From assembly GCA_003166055.1 (NCBI GenBank), contig PMWR01000125.1, positions 1 to 17,108 on the forward strand: a DNA stretch of 17,108 nt, given 5' to 3'. The stretch comes from Acidobacteriaceae bacterium (GTDB lineage: Bacteria > Acidobacteriota > Terriglobia > Terriglobales > Acidobacteriaceae). The notes under the pieces are model-generated. The model saw only the letters and a program-made list of their open reading frames with translations. It ran no database searches and was not told the origin of the DNA. Shown piece after piece: positions 1,319-16,391 of the stretch (the stretch's first letter is position 1; the number at the start of each line of letters is the position of its first letter). The position numbers were made by a program, and so were the translations under genes.

Positions 1319-1335
1319 AGCAAGAGAGGTGCCAA
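1319..1335 (-). promoter_or_regulatory. Sigma-54 (-24/-12) promoter of the OmpA-like gene
   Basis: The minus strand reads TTGGCACCTCTCTTGCT, matching the sigma-54 consensus TTGGCACG-N4-TTGCW with one mismatch and the obligatory 10 bases between GG and GC. The predicted transcript start is near 1308, giving a leader of about 150 bases before the ATG at 1150. Confidence 0.75.
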
Positions 1336-1377
1336 ACTCCAAAGCCATCGTTGCTCGGCCCGTGTATTCAGCAACAA

Positions 1378-1387
1378 TGTCGCGACG
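1378..1387. promoter_or_regulatory. Candidate enhancer-binding dyad TGTCGCGACG
   Basis: A 9-of-10 palindrome of the same type as the perfect TGTCGCGACA at 1558-1567. It is centred about 75 bases upstream of the predicted start of the minus-strand sigma-54 promoter, a normal position for an NtrC-type activator site. The rest of the 1157-1715 divergent region holds only the elements listed here; I see no gene in it. Confidence 0.4.
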
Positions 1388-1557
1388 AGCAGGCGCGAAC
1401 AACGTCACCTAATGCTTGCCTAATGAATCCCGAACACAATGACTTACGCCGCCAGAGACAGATGCGATTCATCCAGTTCGCAATGGGCTGCATTGATTTG
1501 CAGAAAGATGCCGGCGCACCTTGAAAGGCCATCGTTCAGCAACCGCTCAAGCGAGAG

Positions 1558-1598
1558 TGTCGCGACAGATTCGAAACTGACGACGACATTTTCGACAC
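1558..1598. promoter_or_regulatory. Candidate enhancer region: perfect dyad plus phased repeats
   Basis: TGTCGCGACA (1558-1567) is a perfect 10-base palindrome centred about 120 bases upstream of the start predicted for the plus-strand sigma-54 promoter. TTCGAAAC (1570-1577) and TTCGACAC (1591-1598) follow, spaced 21 bases apart, or two helical turns. The same TGTCG/CGACA half-sites and 21-base period recur upstream of the TonB receptor gene. Binding of a shared activator is inferred. Confidence 0.5.
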
Positions 1599-1654
1599 TG
1601 CGCTTCATGGGTGGAAATCGATATTGAAAACAAAAGGGATAATTTATCGCGGAT

Positions 1655-1671
1655 TTGGCATCCTCATTGCT
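1655..1671 (+). promoter_or_regulatory. Sigma-54 (-24/-12) promoter of the receiver/ECF unit
   Basis: TTGGCATCCTCATTGCT keeps TTGGCA, TTGCT and the exact 10-base GG-to-GC spacing; two of the weaker consensus positions (CG after TTGGCA) differ. The predicted start is near 1682, 34 bases before the ATG at 1716, the same leader length as at the TonB receptor promoter. Confidence 0.7.
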
Positions 1672-1715
1672 CTATCCCAACATCGAGCAGCACCGTTACA
1701 ACAGGAACGCCCGAT

Positions 1716-2120
1716 ATGAGAAAGACCATGAATGTACTCTCACTTGGTATCGAGGAGTGGAGGTTAGCAGTCCGTAAAGCCTTGTCCACAGGGCAAAAGA
1801 GCGGTTTTTGGGGAGTGAATAATTTGTGGGATCTGTGTGCTCTTCCGGAAGCTGTGTCGGTGGATGTCGCCGTCTTTCACCAATCCTTTTCCCTGCGCGA
1901 ATTGCGCTGCGCGGCTGAGTACATTCGCCGGCGTTGGCCCGAGGCGGTGATCCTTGTGATCGGCGAGCGAGCAAATCATTTGGATGATCCTCTCTACGAT
2001 CACAAAGCGAACTGCGAAATCTCAGTCGAGGAATTGGCGCGAATGATCGAAACATTGGTAGCGGGCAAAGCAGGAATCAGAAGGAATGTACGATCCGGGC
2101 TGAGCAACGTTCGAGGGTAA
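1716..2120 (+). CDS. Degenerate receiver-like (pseudo-response-regulator) protein
   Basis: A 134-residue protein whose strand and helix pattern resembles a stand-alone response-regulator receiver: beta1 MNVLSLG, beta3 VDVAVFHQSF, beta4 AVILVIG and a C-terminal helix SVEELARMIETLV. The beta3 end, where the phospho-accepting Asp sits, reads AVFHQS with no Asp, so it is probably not phosphorylated in the usual way. ATG 1716 is chosen over the upstream in-frame ATG at 1611: AGGA lies 9 bases before it, and the sigma-54 start near 1682 would exclude the longer form. It is followed by a strong stem-loop and then the ECF sigma gene, so a regulatory role as a protein-protein switch is plausible. The fold assignment rests on pattern only; it could be annotated simply as hypothetical. 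Confidence 0.7.
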   Translation: MRKTMNVLSLGIEEWRLAVRKALSTGQKSGFWGVNNLWDLCALPEAVSVDVAVFHQSFSLRELRCAAEYIRRRWPEAVILVIGERANHLDDPLYDHKANCEISVEELARMIETLVAGKAGIRRNVRSGLSNVRG

Positions 2121-2126
2121 AAGAAG

Positions 2127-2157: not shown

Positions 2158-2200
2158 ACGATCACGATGGCGCCGATTCCGGGCGCGTATGGAGGATGCA

Positions 2201-2881
2201 ATGCAGTTGGCAGACAAGCCGGAGTTGGCGCTTTCGAGCGAATTGAGTCCTGGACCTTTGCTCCAGACCAAAGAAGGTGGCGGTTGGCAGCGTAGCGATG
2301 AAGAACTCGTCATCGCAGCCCAAAACGGAGAGTCCTGTGCGCTGGGTGAGCTGCTCGGCCGCCACCAGAAGATGCTGTACTGCTTTGCTCGCCGTTATAC
2401 CGCGAATGCAGATGAAGCCAACGACCTGGTTCAGGAAACGATGTTGCGCGCATGCGGAAACATTCAAAGGTTCCGCGGGGAGTCTCGCTTTCTGACCTGG
2501 TTGAGCTCAATCGCAATCAACACAGCGCTCTCCAATAAAAGGAGGGAAAAGCACGTTCGATGGTTCTGTTTCGACGAGCAAGAAGGAGAGGAGGCTCGAT
2601 TCAGCATGAGAAGCCTCCGAGATGTGCGCCGGAATCCGGAAGAAGAGTATTCGCATCGAGAACTTCGCGGCCTGTTGCGGCGCGAGGCCTTGAAACTGCA
2701 CCCAAAGTATCGATCCATATTGAAGGCATGCGACTTCGACGATTGCTCTCTCAAGGAGGTTGCACGCGCGCAGGGCATCCAACTCGGAGCTGCGAAGTCG
2801 CGGTTGTTCAGGGCCAGGTGGAGTCTTTCGGCCGCATTGAAGAGATCCGGAGCGGTCGGGACAAGTATCCAGCATGGGTAG
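2201..2881 (+). CDS. ECF-family RNA polymerase sigma factor
   Basis: A 226-residue extracytoplasmic-function sigma factor that would direct RNA polymerase to a dedicated promoter set. Region 2 spans about residues 48-117, with the characteristic DEANDLVQETMLRA (71-84) and FRGESRFLTWLSSIAINTAL (91-110). Region 4 spans about 160-213, with the helix-turn-helix CSLKEVARAQGIQLGAAKSR (182-201). There is no region 3 and no C-terminal extension. ATG 2201 is preferred to the in-frame ATG at 2189 because GGAGG (2191-2195) sits 5 bases before it. No anti-sigma factor is encoded next to it; the next gene, 39 bases on, is a LolA/RseB-like exported protein. It lies in the unit read from the sigma-54 promoter at 1655, so its expression may depend on a second alternative sigma factor. 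Target promoters are unknown. Confidence 0.93.
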   Translation: MQLADKPELALSSELSPGPLLQTKEGGGWQRSDEELVIAAQNGESCALGELLGRHQKMLYCFARRYTANADEANDLVQETMLRACGNIQRFRGESRFLTWLSSIAINTALSNKRREKHVRWFCFDEQEGEEARFSMRSLRDVRRNPEEEYSHRELRGLLRREALKLHPKYRSILKACDFDDCSLKEVARAQGIQLGAAKSRLFRARWSLSAALKRSGAVGTSIQHG

Positions 2882-2920: not shown

Positions 2921-3721
2921 TTGAATTTGCGCTACTGTAAATGCTTATGCCAGCTTTCGCTCCTTGCAGGGGGGCTGTTATCCTTGGGCCCTTGGTCCTT
3001 GTCGCAGAGTGCCCCCCCCGCTCCTTCGCCAGCGACACCTGATACTGCCCAGATTGTGCAGTCCATCGAACACCACGATCAGACGCAGGCAAAGACGTTA
3101 AAGCGCTATCAAGCACCGCGTCATTACAAGGTCGAGTATCGAGGTTTCTTCAAGAGCATCACCGCCAGGATGGACGTCGAACTCGAGTATGATGCCGCTA
3201 CCGGGAAGAGCTTCCGGATCGTTTCCCAGAGCGGTTCGCACACGCTTTGTGAAAAGGTTCTCAAGCGGGCGCTGGACAGCGAGAAGGATGCATCGAAGGA
3301 TCGCAGCGCCCACGCGTTGACGCCGGCGAATTACAACTTCCAGTTGCTTGGTAGTGAGACGCTCAACGGTCGGCTGTCCTATGTTTTGCAAGTCGATCCA
3401 GTCTCGGGCAGCCAGTATCTCTATCGAGGGAAGATATGGGTTGATGCAGCGGATGGTGCTGTGTCCAGGATGGAGGTTCAGCCCGCGAAGAATCCCTCAT
3501 TCTGGATCTCTCAGACGCTGATTCACCAGACAAATTCGAAGATCGGCGACTTTTGGTTCCCGGAGCAGAATCAAAGCGAGACTAAGGTTCGCGTCGGCGG
3601 AAAGGCCGTGTTGACGATCGACTACGGACCCTATCAGATTTCACAACCGCAATCGCCGCAATCTGTCGGTGACAATGAGACCGAACTGGCTAAGGGTAGT
3701 CTTCGCGCCGCGGTCCGGTGA
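2921..3721 (+). CDS. LolA/RseB-like exported protein (paralogue 1)
   Basis: A 266-residue secreted protein resembling outer-membrane lipoprotein-sorting or sigma-E-regulatory (LolA/MucB/RseB-like) folds, which hold acyl chains in a half-barrel. It begins with a TTG codon; AGGAAGGAG (2905-2913) ends 7 bases before it, making the start credible. Residues 1-30 form a signal peptide. The body has alternating beta strands and the signature NYNFQLLG..LNGRLSYVLQVDP, LYRGKIWVDAADGAVSRMEV, QPAK and FWFPEQ. The protein encoded at 6710-7447 repeats these blocks in the same order, so the two are paralogues flanking the TonB receptor. It lies 39 bases after the ECF gene and is probably cotranscribed with it. 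A role in lipoprotein or lipid handling is inferred. Confidence 0.8.
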   Translation: MNLRYCKCLCQLSLLAGGLLSLGPWSLSQSAPPAPSPATPDTAQIVQSIEHHDQTQAKTLKRYQAPRHYKVEYRGFFKSITARMDVELEYDAATGKSFRIVSQSGSHTLCEKVLKRALDSEKDASKDRSAHALTPANYNFQLLGSETLNGRLSYVLQVDPVSGSQYLYRGKIWVDAADGAVSRMEVQPAKNPSFWISQTLIHQTNSKIGDFWFPEQNQSETKVRVGGKAVLTIDYGPYQISQPQSPQSVGDNETELAKGSLRAAVR

Positions 3722-4061: not shown

Positions 4062-4095
4062 TCGACACTTTCGACTCATGTGTCGACTCTTTCGA
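4062..4095. promoter_or_regulatory. Candidate enhancer sites upstream of the TonB operon
   Basis: TCGACAC (4062-4068) and GTGTCGA (4080-4086) form a perfect 7-base inverted repeat with an 11-base spacer, centred about 89 bases upstream of the predicted start. The 13-base blocks TCGACACTTTCGA (4062) and TCGACTCTTTCGA (4083) are also direct repeats 21 bases apart, with a weak third copy in phase at 4104. Two-turn phasing fits a multimeric sigma-54 activator; its identity is unknown. Confidence 0.55.
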
Positions 4096-4135: not shown

Positions 4136-4152
4136 TTGGCAAGCCTATTGCT
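4136..4152 (+). promoter_or_regulatory. Sigma-54 (-24/-12) promoter of the TonB/headgroup operon
   Basis: TTGGCAAGCCTATTGCT differs from the consensus TTGGCACG-N4-TTGCW at one position and has the exact 10-base GG-to-GC spacing. The predicted start is near 4163, 34 bases before the GTG at 4197. It probably drives 4197-10644. Confidence 0.8.
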
Positions 4153-4196: not shown

Positions 4197-6707
4197 GTGT
4201 TCATGAGATTTGCTTATCCGGTAGTTGGGCGCACTCGCGCAATGAGGAAGATCGAACCCAAAAGCATCTTCCTGGTCGCGGCCATGTTTGCCCTGTGTGT
4301 GCTTCTTCCTCCTTCTGCACGCGGGCAAAGTTCCGTCAGGCCGGGCTCTGTGGAAGGCACTGTTTTAGTTTTGGACTCCGGAGGGCCTTCCGTATTGCCA
4401 GGCGCAAAGGTCGTATTGAAGGGCTCCACAACCCGCGAGACCGAGGCCGATGCTGACGGAAAGTACAGTTTCCCTGAAGTCGCTCCCGGCGATTACACAA
4501 TTGAAGCCGACTTTCCCGGGATGCACGCAGAGCAAACAGTCGCTGTGACTCCCGGAGTCGATTTGAAGGTGCCGCTGAAACTGAGACTAGCTGAGGTCAA
4601 GACCTCAGTCACCGTAACGGGAAGCTCAAACGAAGCGGAAGTATCAACTTCTTCCGTGACCATCTCCGAAAAGATCATCAACGATGCACCCAACGCAGAC
4701 GAGCGATTTGAAAGCTTGCTTCCCCTGGTTCCAGGCGTGGTTCGTGGGCCGGATGGTCGTATCAATATGAAGGGCGCTCGCAGCACCCAGAGCGGAGCCC
4801 TGGTGAATAGCGCCAACGTGACTGATCCGGCCTCCGGTAGTTCCGCAATCAACCTGCCGATTGACGTGGTCTCTTCGGTCCAGGTCATTTCAAATCCATA
4901 TGACCCTCAATATGGCAAGCTGACTGGGGCACTTTCGACGGTTGAAACAAAAACAAGCAATTACGAGAAGTATCACTTTACGATTCAGAACATCGTTCCT
5001 CGCTGGCGCGATCGCGCCGGCACCATCGCGGGACTTGGCGCAGCAACTCCGCGCATGACTTTCACCGGCCCAATTCTCAGGGACCGGGCCGCATGGACCC
5101 AATCCTTTGAATACAGGTTCGTGCGGACTCCAGTAAACAGCCTGCCCCCGTTGCAGCGGGATACCAAACTGGAAGGGTTCAACTCGTATACGCAGTTCGA
5201 TCTAACGCACGGCTCCGAGCAGACGGCCACCGTATCGCTAACGATCTATCCGCAGAAGCTAGACTACATGGGGCTGAATACCTTCACGCCTCAGCCATCC
5301 ACAACGGATTTCCGTCAACGCGGATACGAGGTGTATGAACAGCACCGGTATATGACCGGAGACGACAGCGCTCTGATCTCACAATTCAGCTACAAAACAT
5401 ACGACGTTGATACCAACGCACAGAGCAACGATCCATACGAGTTGATGATCGACACAACCGCCGGTGGATTCTTTAACCGGCAAAGCCGGCGCACCGCCCG
5501 ATACGACGCACAGGAGAGCTATCAATTTGCACCTCGTCAGCTCGTTGGCGCACACCGTATTAAGACCGGTATAGAGTACTCGCACTCTTCACTCAGCGGG
5601 TTGGAAACCTCTCTTCCTGTCGAACTGATCGGGACCTCGGGAACGACGATTGAACAAATCTCGTTTACCCCCACTTCGACCTTCGACGTCGGCCAGAACG
5701 AGACTGCGGCCTATGTCTCCGATCAGTGGGCGCCTTTGAGCAGGTTGTCATTCACCTTCGGATTGCGGTTGGATAGCGATACCGTTACAGGCTCCACGCA
5801 CGTTGCGCCACGCGGCAGCATGCTCCTGACACTCACAAGCGACGGCAAGACACTGCTCAGCGGAGGAGCTGGAATCTTCTATGATCGCGTACCCCTGATG
5901 CTCCCAACGTTTCCAACTCTTCCGGCGCGCACGGTGTCGGTGTACGACTCCGGCGGCCAGGTTTCCAGTTCGATCGCTTTTGTCAACGCCATCGCGGGCG
6001 GGTTGCAGAGTCCGCGAAGCACATCTTGGAATGTTGAACTGGAACGGCAGGTCACCAGCAGATTCACCGCCCGCGCTGGCTACCAGGAACGTAACACCGC
6101 CAAGGATTTCGTAGTTTCTCCTGTCATGGGGGCGGAATCCGGTGTGATGTCGTTATCGAATGGGGGCAGCGATTCTTACCGCGAGTTTCAAGTTACTGGG
6201 CGCTATCAGATTCCTCGCGCGACTTTGAATGCATCGTATGTGCGTTCGCGGGCTTACGGCAATCTGAACGACCCGTTCCTCTTCATCGGGAACAATCCAC
6301 AGGCGGTGATTCAGCCCGATGCCAGTGCGCGTCTGCTCTTCGACGCCCCGAATCGCATCCTGATCTGGCCCACCATAGCCGGCCCGTGGAAACTGAACAT
6401 TCTGCCTGTCTACGACCTGCACACAGGCTTTCCCTATTCGGTCGAAAACGAGTACCGCCAGTACATCGGTCCGCGCGATGACCGGCGATTCCCATGGTTC
6501 TCCTCCTGCGACCTGCAGATCAACCGGCCCGCTACACTCCACGTCGGTGCTAAGCGGATGCATCTCGTCGTAGGCGGTTCCGTCTTCAATATGTTCAATC
6601 ACGATAATCCCCGCGACGTGCAGAACGATCTCGACAGTTCCTCGTTCGGCCGATTCTATAACCCCGCATGGAGAGAATACCGCGGGAAATTGGTATTCCA
6701 GTTTTGA
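4197..6707 (+). CDS. TonB-dependent receptor, Oar/CarboxypepD_reg type
   Basis: An 836-residue outer-membrane beta-barrel receptor. Order: N-terminal signal with hydrophobic core about 23-37 and likely cleavage after ARG at 43; carboxypeptidase-regulatory-like beta-sandwich about 49-145 (GTVLV...LPGAKVVLK...T.ADGKYSF..V.PGDYTI); plug about 150-255 (FESLLPLVPGVVRG, INMKGARSTQSGALVNSANV, IDVVSSVQVISNPYDPQYGK); then a long barrel rich in alternating aromatic strands, ending in KLVFQF, a terminal-Phe signal for BAM insertion. It is shorter than many acidobacterial Oar receptors (about 1000-1200 residues). The GTG at 4197 has GAGGA 6 bases upstream; ATG 4203 is the alternative. It is the first gene of the operon, followed after 2 bases by a LolA/RseB-like gene. 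The ligand is unknown; no siderophore or sugar genes are nearby. Confidence 0.9.
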   Translation: MFMRFAYPVVGRTRAMRKIEPKSIFLVAAMFALCVLLPPSARGQSSVRPGSVEGTVLVLDSGGPSVLPGAKVVLKGSTTRETEADADGKYSFPEVAPGDYTIEADFPGMHAEQTVAVTPGVDLKVPLKLRLAEVKTSVTVTGSSNEAEVSTSSVTISEKIINDAPNADERFESLLPLVPGVVRGPDGRINMKGARSTQSGALVNSANVTDPASGSSAINLPIDVVSSVQVISNPYDPQYGKLTGALSTVETKTSNYEKYHFTIQNIVPRWRDRAGTIAGLGAATPRMTFTGPILRDRAAWTQSFEYRFVRTPVNSLPPLQRDTKLEGFNSYTQFDLTHGSEQTATVSLTIYPQKLDYMGLNTFTPQPSTTDFRQRGYEVYEQHRYMTGDDSALISQFSYKTYDVDTNAQSNDPYELMIDTTAGGFFNRQSRRTARYDAQESYQFAPRQLVGAHRIKTGIEYSHSSLSGLETSLPVELIGTSGTTIEQISFTPTSTFDVGQNETAAYVSDQWAPLSRLSFTFGLRLDSDTVTGSTHVAPRGSMLLTLTSDGKTLLSGGAGIFYDRVPLMLPTFPTLPARTVSVYDSGGQVSSSIAFVNAIAGGLQSPRSTSWNVELERQVTSRFTARAGYQERNTAKDFVVSPVMGAESGVMSLSNGGSDSYREFQVTGRYQIPRATLNASYVRSRAYGNLNDPFLFIGNNPQAVIQPDASARLLFDAPNRILIWPTIAGPWKLNILPVYDLHTGFPYSVENEYRQYIGPRDDRRFPWFSSCDLQINRPATLHVGAKRMHLVVGGSVFNMFNHDNPRDVQNDLDSSSFGRFYNPAWREYRGKLVFQF

Positions 6708-6709: not shown

Positions 6710-7447
6710 ATGAGATTCCGCATCCTCATTTCGGCACTGCTTGCCTGCGCACCGGCGTCGCTGATCGGTCAAACGACCGCCGCGCCTTCTCTATCGGCGG
6801 ATGAAGTTATCGCACGGATGTTCACGCACGAAGTACAACGCGAATCCTCGGCCGGAGGATACACGGGCAGCCGGCAATACGTTCTTGACAACCCGCGCTT
6901 CGACAAACAAGCCCGGATGGAAGTCAGAGTCACCTGCGCTCCGGATGGAACGGAAAGCTTCCAGGTTGTTTCCGAACAGGGTTGGAAGTCAGCGAACCTC
7001 TTGCTGCGCAAGATTCTGGAATCGGAGTCCGAGACTTCGATGCCACTGGAGCGCGCCAAGAGCCGGGTCACCTCGGATAACTACGGATTTCAGATGATCG
7101 AATCCGCCCCTCTCGATGGCCGGCTCGCTTACGAGATCGATGTAATCCCGAAGCGCCAGGATGTGGTCCTGTTTCGCGGACGGATCTGGGTCGATGCCGA
7201 AGACTATGCGTTGGCGCGCGTCGAGGGCGAGCCAGCCAAGATCACAACCGTTTGGATCCACAGTGTGCATTTCACCCAAGAGTTTCGGAAGAGCGGTGAG
7301 TACTGGTTTCCTTCGTCTACCACCAGCATCACCGAGGCGCGGATCCTTGGCAAAACAAAGGTTGACATTCACCATTTCGACTACTTTCCGCGCTCCGGAA
7401 AGGCAAGCAGAGATGCAAAACCGTGGACTTGTGGAGGCTCGTTATGA
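6710..7447 (+). CDS. LolA/RseB-like exported protein (paralogue 2)
   Basis: A 245-residue secreted protein with a short signal peptide (MRFRILISALLACAPASLIG, likely cleaved before QTT). It shares ordered blocks with the 2921-3721 product: NYGFQMIES..LDGRLAYEIDV, LFRGRIWVDAEDYALARVEG, EPAK, VWI and YWFP. A periplasmic lipoprotein/lipid-binding or receptor-partner role is inferred. ATG 6710 lies 2 bases after the TonB receptor stop; the open frame extends back to 6668 inside the receptor gene, but the short start gives a proper signal peptide. Its stop overlaps the next start as ATGA, implying translational coupling to the cytidylyltransferase gene. Confidence 0.8.
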   Translation: MRFRILISALLACAPASLIGQTTAAPSLSADEVIARMFTHEVQRESSAGGYTGSRQYVLDNPRFDKQARMEVRVTCAPDGTESFQVVSEQGWKSANLLLRKILESESETSMPLERAKSRVTSDNYGFQMIESAPLDGRLAYEIDVIPKRQDVVLFRGRIWVDAEDYALARVEGEPAKITTVWIHSVHFTQEFRKSGEYWFPSSTTSITEARILGKTKVDIHHFDYFPRSGKASRDAKPWTCGGSL

Positions 7448-8208
7448 CAAACGCTAAACTCGCTCTGATTCTGGCAGCCGGCAACGGGAGCCGTTTGGCC
7501 TCTTGCTCTGGAGAACTTCCCAAGCCCCTTGTGGCGCTCCATGGCAAGCCGCTCCTGGAACATGTCATTTCAGGAGCACGCGAGGCTGGCATCGAGAGGT
7601 TTGTCATCGTGCTTGGGTATCGCAGCGATGCGATTCGAGAGTGGTACGAGAATCGGCATTTCCGGGGCGTCGATGTTGCCTGGGTTGAGAATCCCGATTA
7701 TCGCAAGAAGAACAATGGAGTCTCCGCTCTATGCGCAATGGATCTGATCCACGAACCTTTCCTTTTGATGATGGCAGACCACATCTTTGAACCAGCAACA
7801 GCTGCGGCTTTGCTACGGCAACCACTGGGCATGAATGAGGTCATTCTCGGCGTCGATCGGAAAGTCGAGAGCGTCTTTGACCTGGACGACGCAACCAAAG
7901 TCAGGCTTGAAGGAGACCGCATCGTCGACATCGGCAAGAATCTCAATCGCTACAACGCTCTCGATACAGGAATGTTCCTCTGTCAGCCGGTGCTCTTCCA
8001 GTGGCTGGAGAGCGCCATGATCGATGGCAATTGTTCCCTCTCGGATGGCCTGCGGATGATGGCACAGAACCGAACCTTCAAAGGCTTCGACATCGGAGAT
8101 GGGCATTGGCAGGACGTGGATACGCCGGCTGCTTTGGATAATGCGTGTAATTCGCTTTCTGTGCGGCCCTGGGCAATGCCGCAAATAGCGAGGCCGGCTT
8201 ATGCCTAG
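7444..8208 (+). CDS. Inositol-1-phosphate cytidylyltransferase-like nucleotidyltransferase
   Basis: A 254-residue cytosolic nucleotidyltransferase of the Rossmann-like GT-A type. It has the signature LILAAGNGSRL (8-18), Lys27 in LPKPLV, the base-contact NNG (90-92), metal-binding ADH (111-113, where sugar nucleotidyltransferases have GD), DTGMF (174-178) and WQDVD (222-226). The MADH block and the short length fit the cytidylyltransferase (IPCT) domain of IPCT-DIPPS enzymes, which makes CDP-inositol from CTP and myo-inositol-1-phosphate. The presence of a DIPPS-like CDP-alcohol phosphotransferase two genes later supports this. ATG 7444 overlaps the previous stop, and GGAGG (7433-7437) sits 6 bases before it. 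Other substrates such as glycerol- or sugar-phosphate cannot be excluded. Confidence 0.8.
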   Translation: MTNAKLALILAAGNGSRLASCSGELPKPLVALHGKPLLEHVISGAREAGIERFVIVLGYRSDAIREWYENRHFRGVDVAWVENPDYRKKNNGVSALCAMDLIHEPFLLMMADHIFEPATAAALLRQPLGMNEVILGVDRKVESVFDLDDATKVRLEGDRIVDIGKNLNRYNALDTGMFLCQPVLFQWLESAMIDGNCSLSDGLRMMAQNRTFKGFDIGDGHWQDVDTPAALDNACNSLSVRPWAMPQIARPAYA

Positions 8209-9244
8209 TTCCAAGCGAAAATCGAAGCCCGCACTGCAGATTCTCGCAGGGCTTCTAGGTGCCTCCTTGCTTGTTTATCTCGTTGAACGGGCAGGCCCCG
8301 GCATACTCCTCCAAAATGCAAAGAACCTCGCCTGGGGAATGGTTCTGGTCATCGCACTTGCAGGCTTTGCCCACATCGTCAAAACGTGGGCATGGCGGCT
8401 CGCTTTGCTCGGCGACGTGAAGAGAATCTCCTTCTGGAGGACTCTGGGCCTGCGTCTTGTATCCGAAGCTATTGGGCAGCTCGGTTTCGTTGGGCTGGTA
8501 TTCGGCGAATCGGCGCGAGTCGCTCTTCTAGGCTCAGGAGTGCCAGTGGCGAGCGCGATATCGTCCGTGGCAATGGACCGCGGCCTCTTCATCGTAACGG
8601 GCGCAATCGTGACAGTAACCGGAATTTGTGCCGCGGCTTTAGTGGCCGCCTTCTCGAGTGCGTTGCGTCTTTATGCAGGCCTATTCGTGTTTGCAGTTGT
8701 GTTTCTGTTGGGACTGGCCGTACTCGCACTCCACAAAGGGTGGCCGCTGTTCTCCATGCCCGCGCGTGCGGTTGGCCGCATTCCGTGGTTTCGCGGCTGG
8801 ATCAACGCCAAAAAGCCCGTCATTGAATCTTCAGAGCGCCAGTTCCTTCAGTTTCATCGCCAAGCGCCGGGCGCCTTTTGGGGCAGCTTGAGCCTCAACC
8901 TGGCAAGCCACCTCCTCGCCATTTTGGAAGTTTATCTGATCCTTCATTTTCTGGGTGCGCACGCCAGCTTCGTTGACGCACTCATTCTCGAATCTCTAAC
9001 CAAGCTAATCAACGTAATTGGTGCCGTTAACCCGGGGAACCTGGGCACCTACGAGGGCGGAAACATGGTAATTGGGAAACTTGCCGGCCTCAGCAGTGCC
9101 CAGGGTTTGACGCTCGGGCTTTGCCGCCGGGCAAGAGCCGTCTTCTGGGCCATTGTCGGAGTCATTTGCCTGGCGTGGTTTTCCCGATCGAACGAGCAGG
9201 CCGAATCGAACAACAGCGCCGAGATTATCACAGGAGCGAACTAA
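8201..9244 (+). CDS. UPF0104/LPG-synthase-TM-type membrane protein, putative flippase
   Basis: A 347-residue inner-membrane protein of the lysylphosphatidylglycerol-synthase transmembrane family (also AglD/YbhN-like), with about eight hydrophobic segments (near 11-27, 43-60, 86-105, 128-150, 158-177, 226-250, 258-276 and 312-327). The family hallmark appears as NPGNLGTYEGGN (277-288). Members move or present lipid or headgroup substrates across the membrane; no catalytic aminoacyl-transferase domain is fused here. Its start overlaps the cytidylyltransferase stop by 8 bases, and its own stop shares one base with the next start. Its place between the nucleotidyltransferase and the phosphotransferase suggests it handles their product; that function is inference. 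Confidence 0.85.
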   Translation: MPSSKRKSKPALQILAGLLGASLLVYLVERAGPGILLQNAKNLAWGMVLVIALAGFAHIVKTWAWRLALLGDVKRISFWRTLGLRLVSEAIGQLGFVGLVFGESARVALLGSGVPVASAISSVAMDRGLFIVTGAIVTVTGICAAALVAAFSSALRLYAGLFVFAVVFLLGLAVLALHKGWPLFSMPARAVGRIPWFRGWINAKKPVIESSERQFLQFHRQAPGAFWGSLSLNLASHLLAILEVYLILHFLGAHASFVDALILESLTKLINVIGAVNPGNLGTYEGGNMVIGKLAGLSSAQGLTLGLCRRARAVFWAIVGVICLAWFSRSNEQAESNNSAEIITGAN

Positions 9245-10644
9245 TGCGAGTGAATGAACCACCCAAGAACCACAACCAGTTGCGCTCCAATGCGCAAGTC
9301 GCGATCGTCCTTGCCAACGAACTTCCTTGGTCACCCTGGTTCGAGCCCTTAACCGCTCGAGTGGGAGCACTGCCCGTATTGCTGCGCGCCATTCTGGGAG
9401 TGCAAGCCACGAACCCGGAACGCACCATTGTTGTTTTCAACCGGGTCACGGGACCGCAGATCAGAGAAGATTTGCTCAAGACGCGGCGTCTCCCGACCGG
9501 TATTGAATGGATGGAAGTTGCCGCGGGCACGCCCCTGTCATCCATTGTTCGCCGTGTAGCTGCGAACTCCGGCAGCGCCCGTATCCTCCTGGTGGCCGGC
9601 AATTGCACTTACCAGCCCGCTTTGCATCGAATGGTGAGTGAATGGAATTGCCATAGAGGCGTGTTGGAACTCAGCACGAATAGCCAACCAACCGGACTTT
9701 TTACCTTCTCGCATAAAGCGGCTCTCGAACTTTGCGCCGATGCGCTGTGCAACGTGGTGACCGTGAAGGATCTGCACCGCTGGATCGCTCGGGAAGCCAC
9801 CTTGAACGGTCCATCGTTCGTCGATTTCAGGCTGGTGGCAGAAGACTCGTGGCATAAGATTTCCATGCCGCAGGATTTGATCGTCGCCGAACAAAAACTC
9901 AACCGCTGGCTCGTCAAGCCCACCGATGGCGTCTTTGCGCGGATGAATCGCAGGATTTCCATCCCCATCAGCCGCCAGCTCATCAAGTTCCCTATCACAC
10001 CCAATATGGTGAGCGGGTTTACGCTGGGTGTCAGCTTAATGGCGGGCGTTTCGTACGCATTGGGCGGATATTGGAATACGCTACTGGGAGCGGTCCTTTC
10101 GGTGTGCGCCAGCATCCTCGACGGTTGCGACGGAGAGGTCGCCCGCTTGAAACTGCAGGCCACCGATTTTGGATGCTGGCTCGAGACTGCGTGCGACTAC
10201 CTCTATTACTTGTTCATCTTTGCAGGAATGACAATCGGCCTGGCGCGGGCATCGGGAAGTAGCGCCTACTGGGCCTGGGGGGCGCTGCTTCTGTTTGGCG
10301 CCGCTACCACCATCCTGCTTGCGTGGTTTGAGCGAAGCAGGCTTTCCGCCAAGCATCCTGAGCAGTTCCTGGCGGTTTGGCAGAAGAAAGCAGAGAGCCG
10401 TTTATCCAATCCACTTTTGTATTTGGGGCGAAAGTGTGAGTTCATCATCCGGCGCTGCTTCCTCCCCTATGCTCTGTTCACCTTTGCGCTGTTGAATCTG
10501 AATTGGCTGGCGTTTTACATGACCGCAGTCGGCGCCAATATTGCGTGGATCATCTCCTTGTATTCGCGATTGACGTTTTCGTCAAAATCGCGCGCGGCAG
10601 CGAGAGCACCTGGCGCGCCGCAAATGAAGCCGATGAACATCTGA
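9244..10644 (+). CDS. CDP-alcohol phosphotransferase with degenerate nucleotidyltransferase N-terminus (DIPPS-like)
   Basis: A 466-residue fusion. Residues about 17-210 look like a decayed nucleotidyltransferase: the position of LAAGxGSR reads VLANELPWSPW, without the glycine loop, so it should not bind nucleotide. Residues about 218-255 (KLNRWLVKPTDGVFARMNRR, ISIPISR) match the linker of IPCT-DIPPS proteins. The C-terminal membrane domain carries the CDP-alcohol phosphotransferase signature D293-x2-D296-G-x2-A-R301-x8-G310-x3-E314-x3-D318; the third acidic residue is Glu instead of the near-universal Asp. It would transfer inositol phosphate (or another CDP-activated alcohol) to a second alcohol with release of CMP. 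ATG 9244 shares a base with the preceding TAA; AGGAG is 7 bases upstream. The open frame extends back to 9121 but overlaps the flippase gene. Confidence 0.85.
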   Translation: MRVNEPPKNHNQLRSNAQVAIVLANELPWSPWFEPLTARVGALPVLLRAILGVQATNPERTIVVFNRVTGPQIREDLLKTRRLPTGIEWMEVAAGTPLSSIVRRVAANSGSARILLVAGNCTYQPALHRMVSEWNCHRGVLELSTNSQPTGLFTFSHKAALELCADALCNVVTVKDLHRWIAREATLNGPSFVDFRLVAEDSWHKISMPQDLIVAEQKLNRWLVKPTDGVFARMNRRISIPISRQLIKFPITPNMVSGFTLGVSLMAGVSYALGGYWNTLLGAVLSVCASILDGCDGEVARLKLQATDFGCWLETACDYLYYLFIFAGMTIGLARASGSSAYWAWGALLLFGAATTILLAWFERSRLSAKHPEQFLAVWQKKAESRLSNPLLYLGRKCEFIIRRCFLPYALFTFALLNLNWLAFYMTAVGANIAWIISLYSRLTFSSKSRAAARAPGAPQMKPMNI

Positions 10645-10909
10645 ACTGAATCCTGCAACTGGTGACAGATTTTCCGTGAAACAGAACGCAAGCCGCCAGC
10701 GCCTTCGCCTTCGAATGCGGCCCGCATGTGAAAGCGGTCGTCCCCAGTTTCGACAATCGGCACAAGAGGCACTGAGCACTTTGCCAAATTAACAACTTGT
10801 ACGGAGGAAGGTCTCGCACTCCGAGTGCTTTCCGAAGAAGCGATGGTGAACCCCTTATGTTGCTCGATGAGGACGAAAAGGTCCTGGAAGTTTACAGGAA
10901 GGATGACCG
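10645..10909. other. Intergenic region before the HtrA gene
   Basis: No sigma-54 motif and no clear terminator is visible, so the protease may be read through from the upstream operon or from a promoter I cannot identify. An 18-codon frame (ATG 10857, encoding a charged peptide MLLDEDEKVLEVYRKDDR) ends at 10911-10913, overlapping the HtrA start as ATGA. It could be a leader peptide, the tail of a lost gene or chance. Confidence 0.3.
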
Positions 10910-12382
10910 ATGACCCGAAGTTCGATCACGCGATTGATGATCGCTAGCTGTCTCGCCGCTTTGCCAGCGAGGGTTGTTTGCCAACAGCCCACTCTCGGGC
11001 CGCCGGCGGAGGTTCGCCCGCATTCCCAGGTGAAATCACGGGCGCCGTCGGAAATCCTGACTCAATTTAGTGATTCATTACAACAGCTGGCCAGCAAGGT
11101 TTCTCCGGCCGTTGTTCAGATCGAGGTAACCGGATTCGGGACCGCCGAGGGGCACGATCGTGAAGGTTCAAATACGGCAGTCATGGTTAGCCAGCGCGCT
11201 ATTGGCGCAGGTGTAATTGTGGACCCTGACGGTTACGTCATGACCAATGCGCACGTGGTGGCCGGGGCACAGCAAATACGTCTAATCTTGCCCGCGGTCC
11301 CAGCAACTTTCTTTGACATTTCCAGTATCGGCAAGTCCCAGGTGCTGAACGCGAAGTTGATCGGAACCCAGAAAGACTGCGACCTGGCGTTGCTGAAGGT
11401 TGAAGCCACGAATCTCCCCACGCTTCCTTTCAATCTCGATCACTCTCCACAACTTGGAGAACTCGTGTTCGCAGTTGGAAGTCCTGAGGGTTTGCAGAGC
11501 TCTGTGACCATGGGAGTGGTTAGTTCGGCGTTTCGACAGCCTGACCCCAACAACCCAATGGTTTACCTGCAAACCGACGCGCCCATTAACCCTGGCAACA
11601 GTGGGGGGCCGCTGGTGGACGTTACAGGCGCAATCGTCGGCTTGAACACGTTCATCCTGAGCAGCAGCGGAGGCAGCCAGGGGTTGGGTTTTGCCATTCC
11701 CGCGCCGATCGTGAATTTCGTTTACCAGAACCTCAGGAAGTACGGCCACGTGCGCCATATCGAAATTGGCGCATTCGCACAAACCATCACACCCACAATG
11801 GCCGACGGCTTGGGGCTCGCGCAGAACTGGGGCGTTGTGCTTGCCGACGTCGAACCTGATGGAGCGGCGTATGCAGCCGGTTTAAGGCCCGGGGACGTTG
11901 TCTTGAATATGGACGGGCACCGTATGTTGGGCCTTCCCGGATTCGCCGTCACTCTCTATCAGCACCCAATCGATCAGGAAGTGAAAATCGATGTGCTGCG
12001 GGGTACGCAGAGACTGTCATTCAACGTCGCTCCCATTCTGGCGCGCGACCGCATGGATGAACTGGCCGGTGTCGCCAATCCAATCATCAGCCGCATCGGA
12101 TCGCTCGGCATTCTGGGGGTAGATCTTGATAGCAAAGTTCGATCGCTGTTGTCGGATGCGCGCCTTGACACAGGTGTCGTCGTAGTTGGACTGGACCGGG
12201 AATCAAATCTCGTAGACACCGGCTTGGAGACGGGGGACATCATCCACGCGCTGAATCGCATGCCCATTGCATCCGTCGAACAATTGAGGTCTGCGGCAGC
12301 TCAACTCAAACCGGAAGACTCAGTGGTCCTGCACATCGAGCGCGAGGGACAACTCAAGTATCTAGCCTTCGAAATGGAGTAG
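10910..12382 (+). CDS. HtrA/DegP-type serine protease with two PDZ domains
   Basis: A 490-residue periplasmic quality-control protease. The N-terminal signal is about residues 1-25. The trypsin-like domain has the full triad His115 (TNAHVV), Asp158 (KDCDLALLKV) and Ser231 (NPGNSGGPL). PDZ1 lies about 285-375 (GVVLADVEPDGAAYAAGLRPGD) and PDZ2 about 400-485 (GVVVVGLDRESNLVDTGLETGD). Length and layout equal classic two-PDZ HtrA proteins. An insertion of small residues (about 75-95) before the first catalytic strand resembles the LA loop region. AGGAAGG (10896-10902) precedes the ATG by 7 bases. It follows the envelope-lipid operon on the same strand, consistent with protection of the same compartment. 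Assignment to DegP, DegQ or DegS cannot be made from sequence alone, but the two PDZ domains exclude a DegS form. Confidence 0.95.
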   Translation: MTRSSITRLMIASCLAALPARVVCQQPTLGPPAEVRPHSQVKSRAPSEILTQFSDSLQQLASKVSPAVVQIEVTGFGTAEGHDREGSNTAVMVSQRAIGAGVIVDPDGYVMTNAHVVAGAQQIRLILPAVPATFFDISSIGKSQVLNAKLIGTQKDCDLALLKVEATNLPTLPFNLDHSPQLGELVFAVGSPEGLQSSVTMGVVSSAFRQPDPNNPMVYLQTDAPINPGNSGGPLVDVTGAIVGLNTFILSSSGGSQGLGFAIPAPIVNFVYQNLRKYGHVRHIEIGAFAQTITPTMADGLGLAQNWGVVLADVEPDGAAYAAGLRPGDVVLNMDGHRMLGLPGFAVTLYQHPIDQEVKIDVLRGTQRLSFNVAPILARDRMDELAGVANPIISRIGSLGILGVDLDSKVRSLLSDARLDTGVVVVGLDRESNLVDTGLETGDIIHALNRMPIASVEQLRSAAAQLKPEDSVVLHIEREGQLKYLAFEME

Positions 12383-12412
12383 TGCGTGGTTGGCAGCAAA
12401 AAGGAGAATTCC

Positions 12413-12895
12413 TTGACTAATACAAGCGCAGTTGGAGAAGCGGGTCCCGCGCAAGCGGTCAGCCCTGAGGGCCGTTTCCTCGCCAACCCGGCGTTTCACT
12501 TTGAGACGCTGCGGAATCCTGAATACATAATGCCCAACTGTGTCGATCTGGGTGAGGTTCTGAATGCGGTGAAGGTCATCGACGAAGGCGATTCACAGAG
12601 CTGGTACGCCGCGTGGAAGGCTACGGCCGATCTCGCGCTCGCACTGGCCGAGCGCACACAGGATTCCCTCAGCAAAGGCCGGCCCTGAATGCGCGTTTCC
12701 AAATACCAGCCCACGGCTCAGTTTCTGATCCCGCTCGACGGGCAGGCTGCCCTGGGCATTGACAGTGGTGTCGTCATAACGCTCTATCTCGCAGCCGTTT
12801 TCGATTGGCTCCCGGAGAAATTCTCCGCAATCCAGCGAGTGAACCAAACATCGAACCTTCGTGCTTTAACGGGTCGACGCCAATGGAGCGAATAA
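12413..12895 (+). pseudogene. Remnant of an alpha/beta hydrolase (N-terminal helical domain)
   Basis: A TTG start at 12413 with AAGGAG 6 bases upstream opens a 91-codon frame: FHFETLR, then DLGEVLNAVKVIDEGDSQSW, then YAAWKATADLALALAE. These blocks resemble the helical N-terminus of FrsA/2,6-dihydropseudooxynicotine-hydrolase-type alpha/beta hydrolases. TGA at 12686-12688 stops it, but the same frame continues from ATG 12689 with MRVSKYQPTAQFLIP and AAVFDWLPEKF, which look like the next family blocks (LRASNYYRTAEFFLP-type and AAxxFDxPxE-type). It ends at 12895 with no hydrolase core, Ser nucleophile or His. It is therefore best read as a truncated gene with one in-frame stop. Alternatively the two halves are separate small coupled genes. 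The homology is from memory of family patterns, not from a search. Confidence 0.55.
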
Positions 12896-13722
12896 AGGAA
12901 CTCGAAACAGGATCATTCACAACCACGCCAGACCAGATCAAGCTTTCGGATGCGGTCAGGATTGTCAACTGGAACATCAATCGCGGCCAACAGTTGAATG
13001 AGGTAATTGAGTTTCTTGCCGGAACGGGGGCAGACCTGGTCCTTTTGCAGGAAGCAGATTGGAATGCCCCACGAACACATTGTCGCAATGTCGCGCGGGA
13101 GATCGCGCAGGCCCTCCAAATGAACTATGTATTCGGATGGGAATTTGAAGAGCTTGCCCAACGACACAACGGGATGCCTGCCTATCATGGCCAGGCAACG
13201 CTCTCCCAATTTCCGCTTTTGAACTCGCGCATTCTCAGGTTCAATTGTCAGTCCAGATTCTGGCTTCCGCGATGGTTTATCCCGCGCATGAAGCCATTCC
13301 AGAGGCGATTAGGCGGCAGAATGGCGCTGATTAGCCACATCGTGCTCCCAGGACGGAAGCTTGTTGTTTACAACGTGCACCTCGAAAGCAGGGGAAATGA
13401 GGGCTTGCGATGCAGTCAACTAGCGGAGCTTCTGGACGATGCCTCTCCTCACGCTGCGGATGTTCAGGTTGTTGTTGCCGGCGACTTCAACGCTGATCTT
13501 CGCCAGGAACCTGCCGTTTCAGTCATCGGCAAAGCAGGGTTCATCAATCCATTCGCCGGCATTTCGAATCCTCTCACCACTGTGCCGACTCGTTTCAATG
13601 GCTCCCGCGCGATCGATTGGATCCTGACCAAGGGACCGCTTATTGCTTGTGAGCCAAAGTTACATGATTCGATTCGGGCCTCTGACCACTACCCGCTCAC
13701 GCTCACGCTTCGTCGTGCTTGA
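12883..13722 (+). CDS. Endonuclease/exonuclease/phosphatase-family protein
   Basis: A 279-residue metal-dependent phosphoesterase of the EEP superfamily (DNase I, sphingomyelinase and inositol-5-phosphatase relatives). All core motifs are visible: VNWNINRG (28-35, Asn31), LQEADW (Glu57), YNVHLES (His166), VAGDFNAD (Asp201, Asn203), IDWIL (Asp245) and SDHYPL (Asp268-His269). No signal peptide is seen. ATG 12883 is chosen; an in-frame TTG at 12805 would add 26 residues of hydrolase-remnant sequence. The start overlaps the end of the preceding broken frame by 13 bases, so it may have inherited its translation from the lost gene. The substrate cannot be read from the sequence; a phospholipid or inositol-phosphate substrate would suit the neighbourhood but is speculative. 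Confidence 0.88.
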   Translation: MERIKELETGSFTTTPDQIKLSDAVRIVNWNINRGQQLNEVIEFLAGTGADLVLLQEADWNAPRTHCRNVAREIAQALQMNYVFGWEFEELAQRHNGMPAYHGQATLSQFPLLNSRILRFNCQSRFWLPRWFIPRMKPFQRRLGGRMALISHIVLPGRKLVVYNVHLESRGNEGLRCSQLAELLDDASPHAADVQVVVAGDFNADLRQEPAVSVIGKAGFINPFAGISNPLTTVPTRFNGSRAIDWILTKGPLIACEPKLHDSIRASDHYPLTLTLRRA

Positions 13723-13864
13723 TTGACATCTTGGGGATAGTGCGAAGCCTCGAATCACAATTGTCGTATTTAACCTCGAAGGCCTTTACCCTCCTTCTAT
13801 GGCGTGCTTACTCTTGAACGTTCCTTCTAGTTGGTCCAGCTATCACGCCATTACGAGAGCTGCG

Positions 13865-13882
13865 GCTCGCGGTGAAGCGAGC
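13865..13882. terminator. Hairpin between convergent genes, possible terminator
   Basis: GCTCGC-GGTGAA-GCGAGC is a perfect 6-base-pair stem with a 6-base loop in the 176-base gap between the convergent EEP and GT39 genes. No T-tract follows on either strand, so intrinsic termination is unproven. Confidence 0.3.
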
Positions 13883-13898
13883 GACTTGAACGGCATTG

Positions 13899-15644
13899 TC
13901 AATACCAGTACTTGAGCCTGGTCCAGTCCTCAGCGTAGGTGAGCTTGCGGTGGCGAAGCCAGAGGTAGTGACTACGCTCGTGATCCATGATCCAGGGGGC
14001 GTCAAAAGAGCCCAGATCGACGACCTCGGCGTAGTCGCCGGCGTACTCTTTGGGGTCGTTGCCCAGGGTCAGGACGGACTCGCCAGTGTCGTTATTCCAG
14101 CCCCAGAAGAAGTAGTTCTGATGACCGCTGATTGCGGGCGGCAAACCGTAACTCGGGCCGAGAATGTTGACGGCGCTGGCTTCCCCGTAGTTGCTGCAGA
14201 AGATGGCGGTGCGGGAGCGAACGTCCGGAGGGAGGGCGTTGTATCGATCGGCAAAACCCTGCACCATTTGCGGCCAGCCAATGCGGTCGGAGAGGATCTC
14301 CGGTAAAGGACTGGTGAACTTCTCAAACCTGGTGGAATTGGGGTCGAAGGGGGCGGTGTAGACGACGTACTTTGCCGGAGGCAGTATTGTGAGCACAGTG
14401 GGGCCCGTGCCCAGACATAGCAGGACGATGAGACTGACCGAGTAGGCGGCAAGCGGCCAATCGCGGCGGACGAATTGGGCGAAGGCCGTGGCCCCGGAAG
14501 CGAAGAGGACGGGATAAATGGGTGCGAGGTAGTAATCCTTGCCATGCATGAGCATCATCGTGCCCAGGAAGAATAGATAGGTGAAAGCAACAAAGCGCCT
14601 GCGACGGGCGGCACGGGCGAAGGCGAGCCAAACCAGCCCGCCGATCCAAAGCGGAGCGGAAAAGACAAACAGGACCTTGACTTGTTCCAGGAGGAACGCC
14701 AGGGGAGGGAACTTGATGTTCTTGTCAGAGTGGGCAACTGTGCTGAGGAACTGGTAGGTGGGAAACTGATTAGCCACTTGCCACAAGAGGTTGGGCATGG
14801 CGATTAGCAGGAGGAGGACGACGCCGGTGGCGCATTCCCTGGTGAAGAGGATTCGCCGCTGCGGGCAAAGAAGGAGCCCGACAAGCAGCGCGGCGAGAAA
14901 GAAGACGGTGGAGTGCTTGTTTTCGATTCCGAGGCCCGTCAAGATACCAAAGACGAGCCAAGCTCGGGGAGTGGCCGTGCCATCAGCAATGCGCAGGACA
15001 ACAAACAAAGCACCCATCCAGAAGCAAGGCTCGAAGGAGTTCATCGAGAGATAGTTTGATGTGGCGAGGAACACCGGGGCGGCGAGTACGCCGCACATGG
15101 CCAGCACCTGCGCACTGCGGCGTCCGCCGAGCTGCCATGTGAGCAGGCCGGTGAGAGCGACGGTGACGCTGCCGGCCAGGTAGCTGAAGATGCGAATGCC
15201 GGTGGGTGAGAGGCCGAAAAGGACTTCAGCGAGGCGGGCCTGGAGGGCAACGAGAGGTGGCTGATCGACATAACCCCAGTCAAGATGGCGGCCGCAGACA
15301 AGGAAATACAGTTCGTCTCTGAAGTAGCCATAGCCGAGATGACTGCCCCAGATTGAGCTCAGAAAATGAATGAGAAAGGTGATTGAGGCAAAGAGAGAAG
15401 CAAGCAGGAACGCAGAGCGCAAGGGCATTCGCATGGGGATGGGAGAAAAGGACTCCGACAATCGAGGCCGCTCGCCAGTTTGTGCTTCCGTCAGGAAATC
15501 TTGCCGTGATCGAACTGGTTGAAATTGCGTGGACTTGGAAATAAGTCTTCCATCCGCCGCACGATAGCAGGCTCGAATGTTCTGGATCGCATTGAATAAG
15601 CTGTAGCCACTATCATTCACGGTAATTTCGGCCGTCGAGTTCAT
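13899..15644 (-). CDS. GT39-family membrane glycosyltransferase (PMT/ArnT-like)
   Basis: A 581-residue polytopic inner-membrane transferase that uses a polyprenyl-phosphate sugar donor to glycosylate proteins or lipids on the periplasmic face. Residues about 75-98 are the first membrane helix. The first periplasmic loop has the catalytic acidic pair in GYFRDELYF (105-113) and the family block LDWGYVDQPPL (121-131). About ten further hydrophobic segments run to about 420, followed by a soluble C-terminal domain. A polar N-terminal extension of about 70 residues precedes the first helix; AGGAG 6 bases before the ATG at 15644 supports this long form, whereas the internal ATG at 15434 (residue 71) has no ribosome site. 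It lies 53 bases downstream of the sigma-region-4-like gene on the same strand, probably in one transcript. Donor and acceptor are unknown. Confidence 0.88.
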   Translation of the reverse strand: MNSTAEITVNDSGYSLFNAIQNIRACYRAADGRLISKSTQFQPVRSRQDFLTEAQTGERPRLSESFSPIPMRMPLRSAFLLASLFASITFLIHFLSSIWGSHLGYGYFRDELYFLVCGRHLDWGYVDQPPLVALQARLAEVLFGLSPTGIRIFSYLAGSVTVALTGLLTWQLGGRRSAQVLAMCGVLAAPVFLATSNYLSMNSFEPCFWMGALFVVLRIADGTATPRAWLVFGILTGLGIENKHSTVFFLAALLVGLLLCPQRRILFTRECATGVVLLLLIAMPNLLWQVANQFPTYQFLSTVAHSDKNIKFPPLAFLLEQVKVLFVFSAPLWIGGLVWLAFARAARRRRFVAFTYLFFLGTMMLMHGKDYYLAPIYPVLFASGATAFAQFVRRDWPLAAYSVSLIVLLCLGTGPTVLTILPPAKYVVYTAPFDPNSTRFEKFTSPLPEILSDRIGWPQMVQGFADRYNALPPDVRSRTAIFCSNYGEASAVNILGPSYGLPPAISGHQNYFFWGWNNDTGESVLTLGNDPKEYAGDYAEVVDLGSFDAPWIMDHERSHYLWLRHRKLTYAEDWTRLKYWY

Positions 15645-15697
15645 TCCTCTCTCCTAATCCGCTCCCACACAGGCCTAATCGCCCGCTGGGAAAAGTC

Positions 15698-16195
15698 TCA
15701 ACTGTCCAAATGACCGATGTGTTTCAGAGCGCAATTCCTTGTATCCCGGATTCTCTGCGGCGAGACTCCTAATAGATCGGCGCAATTCTGATCAGCGTAT
15801 TCTTCAAGAACGGACAGAACGTACACGAGGCGTTCGAAGTCATCGAGCGCAAGAACTCTTGCAAGGAATGGTTCCTGCAAAGAGGTTGCCGCGAACGCCG
15901 CCGTGGACTCGGATTCGCAAGGGCCAGGGTTGGGTGTGAGCATTCGAACTGCATTGCGGACAATAGTGCGCCGGGTCCACGAATGTGCCCACTTGTGAGA
16001 GGCGGAATTCCCGCCTATGCACACATAGGGAATAATGTTGAAGCAAAGCTCCGCATTCTCGCGATCCGCAGTCAGCAGGATAGAGAGCAGGTACAAACCG
16101 CGGGAGTCATCCATGAGGAGCTCGCAAAAGTCTGCACTTGTTGTGAACTGACTGTTCCTGTTTTTTGACATTCCATGTGCATTCAAGCAACTCAC
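15698..16195 (-). CDS. Sigma-region-4-like regulatory protein
   Basis: A 165-residue cytosolic protein. Residues about 21-90 (DFCELLMDDSRGLYLLSILL, TADRENAEL, KWAHSWTRRTIVRNAVRML) weakly recall sigma region 2 but lack the usual DLVQE core. Residues about 113-161 (DDFERLVYVLSVLEEYADQN, then CADLLGVSPQRIRDTRNCAL) form a region-4-like helix-turn-helix. Proteins with this make-up are frequent in acidobacteria and are often labelled sigma-like or hypothetical. The start is GTG 16195 with GGAGAG 8 bases upstream; ATG 16171 is an alternative. A sigma-54 promoter lies about 170 bases upstream. It may regulate, or be cotranscribed with, the GT39 gene. Whether it works as a sigma factor is unknown. Confidence 0.75.
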   Translation of the reverse strand: MSCLNAHGMSKNRNSQFTTSADFCELLMDDSRGLYLLSILLTADRENAELCFNIIPYVCIGGNSASHKWAHSWTRRTIVRNAVRMLTPNPGPCESESTAAFAATSLQEPFLARVLALDDFERLVYVLSVLEEYADQNCADLLGVSPQRIRDTRNCALKHIGHLDS

Positions 16196-16374
16196 TGGTC
16201 TTTCTCTCCGGTCTCAATCCTGGGTGTAATACTTCGATTGTTTTCGTCCATCAACTTTCCGGTTGTGGCATCGCATCGGCAGCCGCAAGCTAGAGCCCTT
16301 CCACATTGCTTTGCGGCACTCATTGATGGGTAGCACGCTCCTGCAGCGCAGATTTGTGGGCTAATCTCAACATG

Positions 16375-16391
16375 TGCAATTCAAGTGCCAG
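16375..16391 (-). promoter_or_regulatory. Sigma-54 (-24/-12) promoter of the sigma-like/GT39 unit
   Basis: The minus strand reads CTGGCACTTGAATTGCA: YTGGCAC, TTGCA and exact 10-base GG-to-GC spacing, with one mismatch to consensus. The predicted start is near 16364, leaving a leader of about 170 bases before the GTG at 16195. Confidence 0.72.

Follow-up and report, generated by a model that had tools for sequence, protein, structure and literature searches.

Four predicted sigma-54 promoters, three with related upstream activator sites, probably place an envelope module of an Acidobacteriaceae bacterium in one regulon

The window analyzed here, a stretch of 17,108 nucleotides from contig PMWR01000125.1 of an Acidobacteriaceae bacterium, contains four sequences with the geometry of sigma-54 (RpoN) promoters, and we put at roughly 0.8 the probability that they are the promoters of a single regulon under one activator encoded elsewhere in the genome. 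Because all four promoters match and three of them have related upstream elements, that activator probably turns on jointly the units behind them, which comprise an outer-membrane transport and lipid module as well as two sigma-factor-like genes. The predicted promoters are the following:

1319-1335, minus strand, predicted sigma-54 −24/−12 promoter of the gene for an OmpA-domain lipoprotein: TTGGCACCTCTCTTGCT; exact match, score 16.1
1655-1671, plus strand, predicted sigma-54 promoter of a unit for a receiver-like protein, an extracytoplasmic function (ECF) sigma factor and a LolA-like protein: TTGGCATCCTCATTGCT; exact match, score 15.2
4136-4152, plus strand, predicted sigma-54 promoter of the TonB/LolA-like/NTP-transferase/HpnL-like/CDP-alcohol transferase unit: TTGGCAAGCCTATTGCT; exact match, score 16.6-16.7
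16375-16391, minus strand, predicted sigma-54 promoter of the genes for sigL, a degenerate ECF-sigma-like protein, and for a GT39-type protein: CTGGCACTTGAATTGCA; exact match, score 16.7

A scan of both strands with the pattern YTGGCA-N6-TTGCW returned these four sites as the sole matches in the window, all with the GG and GC dinucleotides 10 bases apart, whereas 0.08 matches per window are expected under a Markov model of order 1 and 0.06 under order 3 (300 sequences each, with a maximum of 2). Alternative spacers between 0 and 15 gave a single match in all, at spacer 7. Also, with a sigma-54 matrix of approximate and unfitted weights, on which the exact-pattern counts do not depend, the four sites score 15.2-16.7 and the next-best site of the window 12.4. 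The coordinates, strands, letters and geometry reported in a preliminary description of this DNA are exact, and its four sites proved to be the top-scoring ones of the window. With the gene starts chosen here, all of them fall in non-coding DNA, which makes up 16% of the window, at distances from the start codon of 168 nucleotides (1319), 44 nucleotides (1655, to an ATG), 50 nucleotides (4136) and 179 or 203 nucleotides (16375). The upstream location claimed for them is thus borne out under these starts; otherwise, the 1655 promoter would lie inside a longer mechanical open reading frame at 1611-2120 given a GTG start, and the 16375 promoter inside a longer mechanical frame at 16367-16864 on the minus strand, to which no function was assigned. 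The assertion that every main transcription unit is headed by such a site went too far, since the HtrA, orf100 and EEP stretch at 10910-13722 lacks a sigma-54-like site (its best scores are 1.1-4.9).

In nine related genomes (about 48.6 Mb), the same pattern has 172 matches, or about 3.5 per Mb, versus 73 for the reversed pattern, so that lone matches are often due to chance. Four sites within 17 kb constitute a strong local cluster, far above the density in the relatives. Six related genomes that carry the CDP-alcohol gene were tested for rpoN, and all of them have it, one in fragmentary form.

The upstream activator site (UAS) was derived from promoters outside the window. Expectation-maximisation on 20 promoters from sigL loci of relatives yielded the motif TGTCGAatCTGacTTCGACA, a palindrome of the type TGTCGA-N8-TCGACA, which starts at −87/−88 or −99/−100 from the −24 element in 12 of the 20 training promoters, −87 to −100 being a usual enhancer distance. 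The motif scores at least 15 at 15 of these promoters and at 1 of 30 generic sigma-54 matches. In the window, the motif and the elements related to it are located as follows, the strand being given where one was assigned:

16485-16504, putative UAS palindrome TGTCGAAGTCGATTTCGACA: best site of the window, 25.9/24.8 on the two strands, starting at −113 from the 16375 promoter
1578-1597, plus strand, putative UAS TGACGACGACATTTTCGACA: second-best site of the window, 19.6, preceding the 1655 promoter by 58-77 bp
4062-4087, plus strand, putative activator repeat TCGACACTTTCGACTCATGTGTCGAC: in front of the 4136 promoter, with half-sites at −74 and −55
16567-16583, two further half-sites TCGACA, at 16567 and 16578
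1378-1387, weak UAS-like sequence TGTCGCGACG: preceding the 1319 promoter by about 43 bp, not among the top matches of the motif
1558-1567, palindrome TGTCGCGACA, read in the divergent region 1336-1654

For comparison, the maximum score of the motif in 300 Markov-2 windows averages 12.4, with a 95% point of 17.0 and a highest value of 20.7, and the highest score in 12 loci of relatives (L001-L012) is 16.3. The first 16 bases of the 4062 repeat are identical to a repeat in locus L265, which is located at −73 (−74 in the window) and precedes a 337-amino-acid gene resembling, by eye, the CarboxypepD_reg protein of locus L264; related repeats are also found before the TonB genes of L262 and L301. 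Judged from the sequence, the UAS at 1578-1597 could also serve the 1319 promoter. Moreover, TGTCGA/TCGACA half-sites reach 6.5/kb in the 250-base upstream regions of 24 strict promoters (the four of the window and the 20 of the sigL loci), compared with 0.93/kb in the remaining DNA of those loci and 0.80/kb upstream of 30 generic sites, fetched from the 172 matches. In the window, 7 of the 18 half-sites are concentrated in 4.2% of the sequence, with a P of 5e-6 that is optimistic because the half-site was chosen after inspecting these regions. This shared activator site at the window promoters is new relative to the preliminary description.

Some further features of these sites were observed. 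A UAS-like match (10736-10755, score 14.3) lies before HtrA in the window, with no sigma-54-like site downstream. A CACTTA-like stretch was seen by eye between the UAS and the −24 element at several promoters of relatives, for example in L262 and L265. Also, two or three promoters with UAS half-sites are clustered within a few kb in L180/L267, L262, L264, L265 and L274, as in the window.

The loci of sigL homologs connect this arrangement with a type of activator. At a threshold of E 1e-8, homologs turned up in 68 of the 398 family genomes, with up to five members per genome, and the best 60 of the 90 listed places were fetched (L172-L231). These 60 loci contain 19 strict promoter matches oriented like sigL, of which 17 (in 15 loci) precede sigL itself, and one of the opposite orientation; the reversed control pattern gave 0 and 1, respectively. 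Eleven of the 19 are located about 340-455 bases before sigL. According to a simple motif test, 24 of the 60 loci contain a gene for an AAA+ sigma-54 activator, as do 13 of the 15 with a promoter match before sigL. Three of the activators beside such promoters were scanned, and all three combine GAF and Sigma54_activat domains, with no receiver domain listed and no helix-turn-helix family listed at E 0.001. If a promoter and UAS pair is called at scores of at least 8 for the promoter and at least 12 for the UAS, the pair precedes sigL in 15 of the 24 loci with an activator gene versus 3 of the 36 without one (Fisher P 2e-5), and the antisense strand of these regions, taken as a control, has it in 0 of 60. 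The pair is also found in six loci whose promoter was outside the training set (L185, L190, L195, L199, L210 and L218; another site of L210 was in that set). In L181, the only locus scanned for this, the genes after sigL encode RND pump components (HlyD and ACR_tran), and other loci look similar by eye. The neighbours of the sigL family vary: besides genes for RND pumps, cytochrome-bd-like genes (L172) and two-component genes (L173) were noted by eye. A 'STAS-like' label for the small gene that some relatives have between promoter and sigL was dropped, two scanned examples having no Pfam family.

The second comparison concerns the TonB module, whose order TonB-LolA-NTP-HpnL-CDP-alcohol is kept in many Acidobacteriaceae loci. 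In the nearest genus, the CDP-alcohol gene was found in 1 of 80 genomes, and the closest comparison is lost because that contig begins inside TonB; L001, L005 and L012 were excluded, the start of TonB being missing. The TonB upstream regions of L002-L004, L006-L009, L011, L117, L119 and L121 were considered as conservation evidence and rejected. Their best sigma-54-like scores are 3.4-11.9, versus 16.6-16.7 in the window, with a shuffle P of 0.025-0.055 in four of them and of at least 0.195 in the others, and two of the 11 contain UAS half-sites, one each. Taken alone, the lack of a strong sigma-54 site before TonB in these 11 loci spoke against the reading of the preliminary description.

A search of 398 genomes with TCGACA-N60-90-TTGGCA-N6-TTGC gave 104 rows in 76 genomes, and 13 for the reversed control; these rows include overlapping duplicates and conserved coding stretches and were used as leads, larger regions being fetched around 35 of the places. 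In one of these regions (L262, TonB identity 51%), a promoter and UAS pair precedes the TonB module. In another (L264, 50%), a promoter with TTGGCG for TTGGCA and two half-sites precede an ECF gene adjoining the TonB module. Each of these two loci carries further UAS-type promoters. In addition, a TonB search of the 76 pattern-positive and 76 other genomes uncovered L301, where a weaker promoter before TonB (GTGCC for TTGCW, score 10.5) is accompanied by a UAS repeat. Thus, 3 of the 15 ortholog loci have the pair before the TonB module or before its ECF gene, these loci being defined by a TonB identity of at least 50% and a visible upstream region, a proportion that is not an unbiased rate because L262 and L264 were found via the pattern and the genome of L301 had been chosen for the pattern elsewhere. 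The receiver-like gene was also tried for a conservation test and rejected as uninformative: 11 of 398 genomes matched, in 13 loci of about 29-41% identity that are probably non-orthologs, and the best site had a P of 0.08.

Several observations weigh against a single regulon. Within the 17,108 nucleotides of the window, neither rpoN nor the activator gene of this genome was seen. With the trained motif, the region upstream of the 4136 promoter scores just 6.7, and the 1319 promoter has weak versions of the UAS only (12.0 at −253, and TGTCGCGACG nearby). The pair is absent from 12 of the 15 TonB ortholog loci, including both loci from the 76 pattern-negative genomes, and the wiring would therefore be lineage-specific. 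The association of the pair with activator genes is partly circular, since the UAS motif was partly trained on loci that were then counted, and it is adjacency alone that suggests binding of the UAS by the neighbouring activator. Finally, the six best-ranked sigL matches (L172-L177) have no promoter and UAS pair, so that the sigL of the window is nearest to members lacking this control. The proposal of one envelope regulon made in the preliminary description consequently stands in part. In its favor, a UAS motif trained without the window has its two best window sites before two of the promoters, with a related repeat before a third, the promoter-UAS pair recurs in relatives beside activator genes and at three TonB-module or ECF loci, and rpoN occurs in all six relatives tested; not sustained are a clear UAS at 1319, conservation at most of the TonB loci and a site for the HtrA/EEP stretch.

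The same evidence bears on other explanations. The four sites could be real sigma-54 promoters that answer to different activators, hence forming no single regulon, and the layout of the UAS does differ among them, in that the 16375 promoter has a perfect palindrome and the 1655 promoter an incomplete palindrome, while repeats are found at the 4136 promoter and weak versions at the 1319 promoter. However, the half-sites are found at three of the four promoters and are rare elsewhere in the window, and the palindrome and repeat types both occur upstream of promoters of relatives, sometimes of the same one (L282), which makes separate activators unlikely. It could also be that the TGTCGA/TCGACA elements serve an ordinary dimeric repressor or another factor, sigma-54 control being a separate matter; the site is a plain palindrome, and the match at 10736-10755 (14.3) has no sigma-54 site with it. 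Nonetheless, the start of the motif at −87/−88 or −99/−100 in 12 of 20 training promoters, which is a usual enhancer distance, and the association with activator genes (P 2e-5) render this explanation decidedly improbable.

As for the possibility that the 17-mers are chance or relict sequences, unused as promoters, it would explain why 12 of 15 TonB-module orthologs do not have them, and it agrees with the reversed-control counts in relatives (73 vs 172), according to which single matches are often chance. Nevertheless, four matches in 17 kb, upstream of genes and with a UAS that is rare at generic matches (1 of 30 scoring at least 15), leave it a very small likelihood.

Under a single sigma-54 regulon, an AAA+ activator from elsewhere in the genome, which probably belongs to the GAF-domain type that accompanies such promoters in relatives, would bind the upstream TGTCGA/TCGACA sequences, and the bound activator would contact the sigma-54 polymerase and open the promoters. 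A single signal, perhaps the state of the envelope, would then turn on in parallel the OmpA, receiver/ECF/LolA, TonB/lipid-headgroup and sigma-like/glycosyltransferase units. Since two of the products are sigma-factor-like, the effect of the switch may pass on to a further round of transcription, with a sigma relay being possible. For the family as a whole, a broader proposal is advanced tentatively, at somewhat less than even odds: an undescribed Acidobacteriaceae sigma-54 envelope regulon in which a GAF-type AAA+ activator acting at TGTCGA-N8-TCGACA would drive RND pumps, TonB/lipid-headgroup modules, outer-membrane proteins and degenerate ECF-like sigmas, constituting a sigma-54-to-ECF relay with an origin independent of QseF-RpoE.

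Among known systems, the probably lineage-specific sigma-54 envelope regulon proposed here would resemble most closely the control of glmY and rpoE by QseF in E. coli, and it may work in a similar way. According to one report (PMC6075780), QseF (GlrR) of E. coli and Salmonella is an AAA+ response regulator with upstream sites, acting on the sigma-54 promoters of glmY and of the ECF sigma gene rpoE, and another (PMC4987338) lists its site as TGTC(N)10GACA. Both systems would have envelope-homeostasis regulators as targets of an AAA+ activator at sigma-54 promoters, and both place a sigma-54 promoter before an ECF sigma gene, here in the 1655 unit and, with TTGGCG for TTGGCA, in L264. However, the site described here reads TGTC(N)12GACA and has GA/TC arms in addition, in contrast to the N10 spacing listed for QseF; the candidate activator, from the three scanned in relatives, has a GAF domain and not the receiver domain of QseF; and the targets include structural envelope genes, in a different phylum. 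Because the spacer and the type of candidate activator differ, the regulon of the window is not classed as a QseF member. An ECF-type sigma gene is also driven by a sigma-54 promoter in the HrpRS-sigma-54-HrpL cascade of Pseudomonas syringae, although activators, targets and host are different here.

The combination of GAF and Sigma54_activat in the three scanned activators of relatives is shared with FhlA and NorR. The sites of these regulators, listed as CATTTCGTACGAAATG for FhlA and GT(N)7AC for NorR in PMC4987338, are not matched by TGTCGAatCTGacTTCGACA, by consensus letters alone. The association of sigma-54 with lipoprotein, lipid and polysaccharide genes is a theme in common with the general survey of Francke (2011), which presents sigma-54 as a controller of the bacterial exterior (PMC3162934), so that this idea is already published. 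The string 'Acidobacteri' occurs 0 times in the available text of that survey, and no UAS like that of the window appears in the passages available; the string is also absent from the text of PMC12316311.

The genes of the window are listed below:

11-1150, minus strand, OmpA-domain protein: PF00691 with 28.4 bits (cut-off 27.2); 'lipoprotein' is a prediction of the preliminary description
1716-2120, plus strand, small receiver-like protein: no family match, 'receiver-like' by eye
2201-2881, plus strand, ECF sigma factor: Sigma70_r2 1.1e-17, Sigma70_r4_2 5.6e-10
2921-3721, plus strand, LolA-like exported protein: PF17131 1.2e-5, under the cut-off
4203-6707, plus strand, TonB-dependent receptor with CarboxypepD_reg domain: family match
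6710-10644, plus strand, second LolA-like, NTP transferase, LPG_synthase_TM/HpnL-like and CDP-alcohol phosphatidyltransferase genes: family matches, order kept in relatives
10910-13722, HtrA, orf100 and EEP stretch
13899-15644, minus strand, PMT_2/GT39-type glycosyltransferase: PF13231 2.3e-17
15698-16171, minus strand, degenerate ECF-sigma-like protein sigL: weak TIGR02983 and TIGR02937 matches under the cut-off, no Pfam match

The nearest CDP-alcohol protein with a named organism, from a Terracidiphilus metagenome-assembled genome, is 80% identical to that of the window, which suggests a Terracidiphilus-like source. In the segment 7444-10644, the NTP transferase and the CDP-alcohol transferase each resemble, under the cut-off, parts of an archaeal inositol-phosphate cytidylyltransferase/transferase, and many of the relatives listed have single proteins of about 812 amino acids that join the HpnL-like part to the CDP-alcohol part. 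By eye, the sequence at 16628-16680 on the minus strand resembles the 3' half of a tRNA gene, and an integrated element could have its border here; ARAGORN found no complete tRNA, and a 22-base piece of it had no match with up to 2 mismatches among the fetched loci of relatives.

Acidobacteriota are abundant soil bacteria, and a non-exhaustive literature search found no published account of a sigma-54 regulon in this phylum. Such a regulon is directly testable, given a concrete enhancer motif, its proposed targets and a candidate type of activator. If it is true, one switch would link TonB transport in these bacteria with efflux pumps and with what may be a phospholipid-headgroup pathway.

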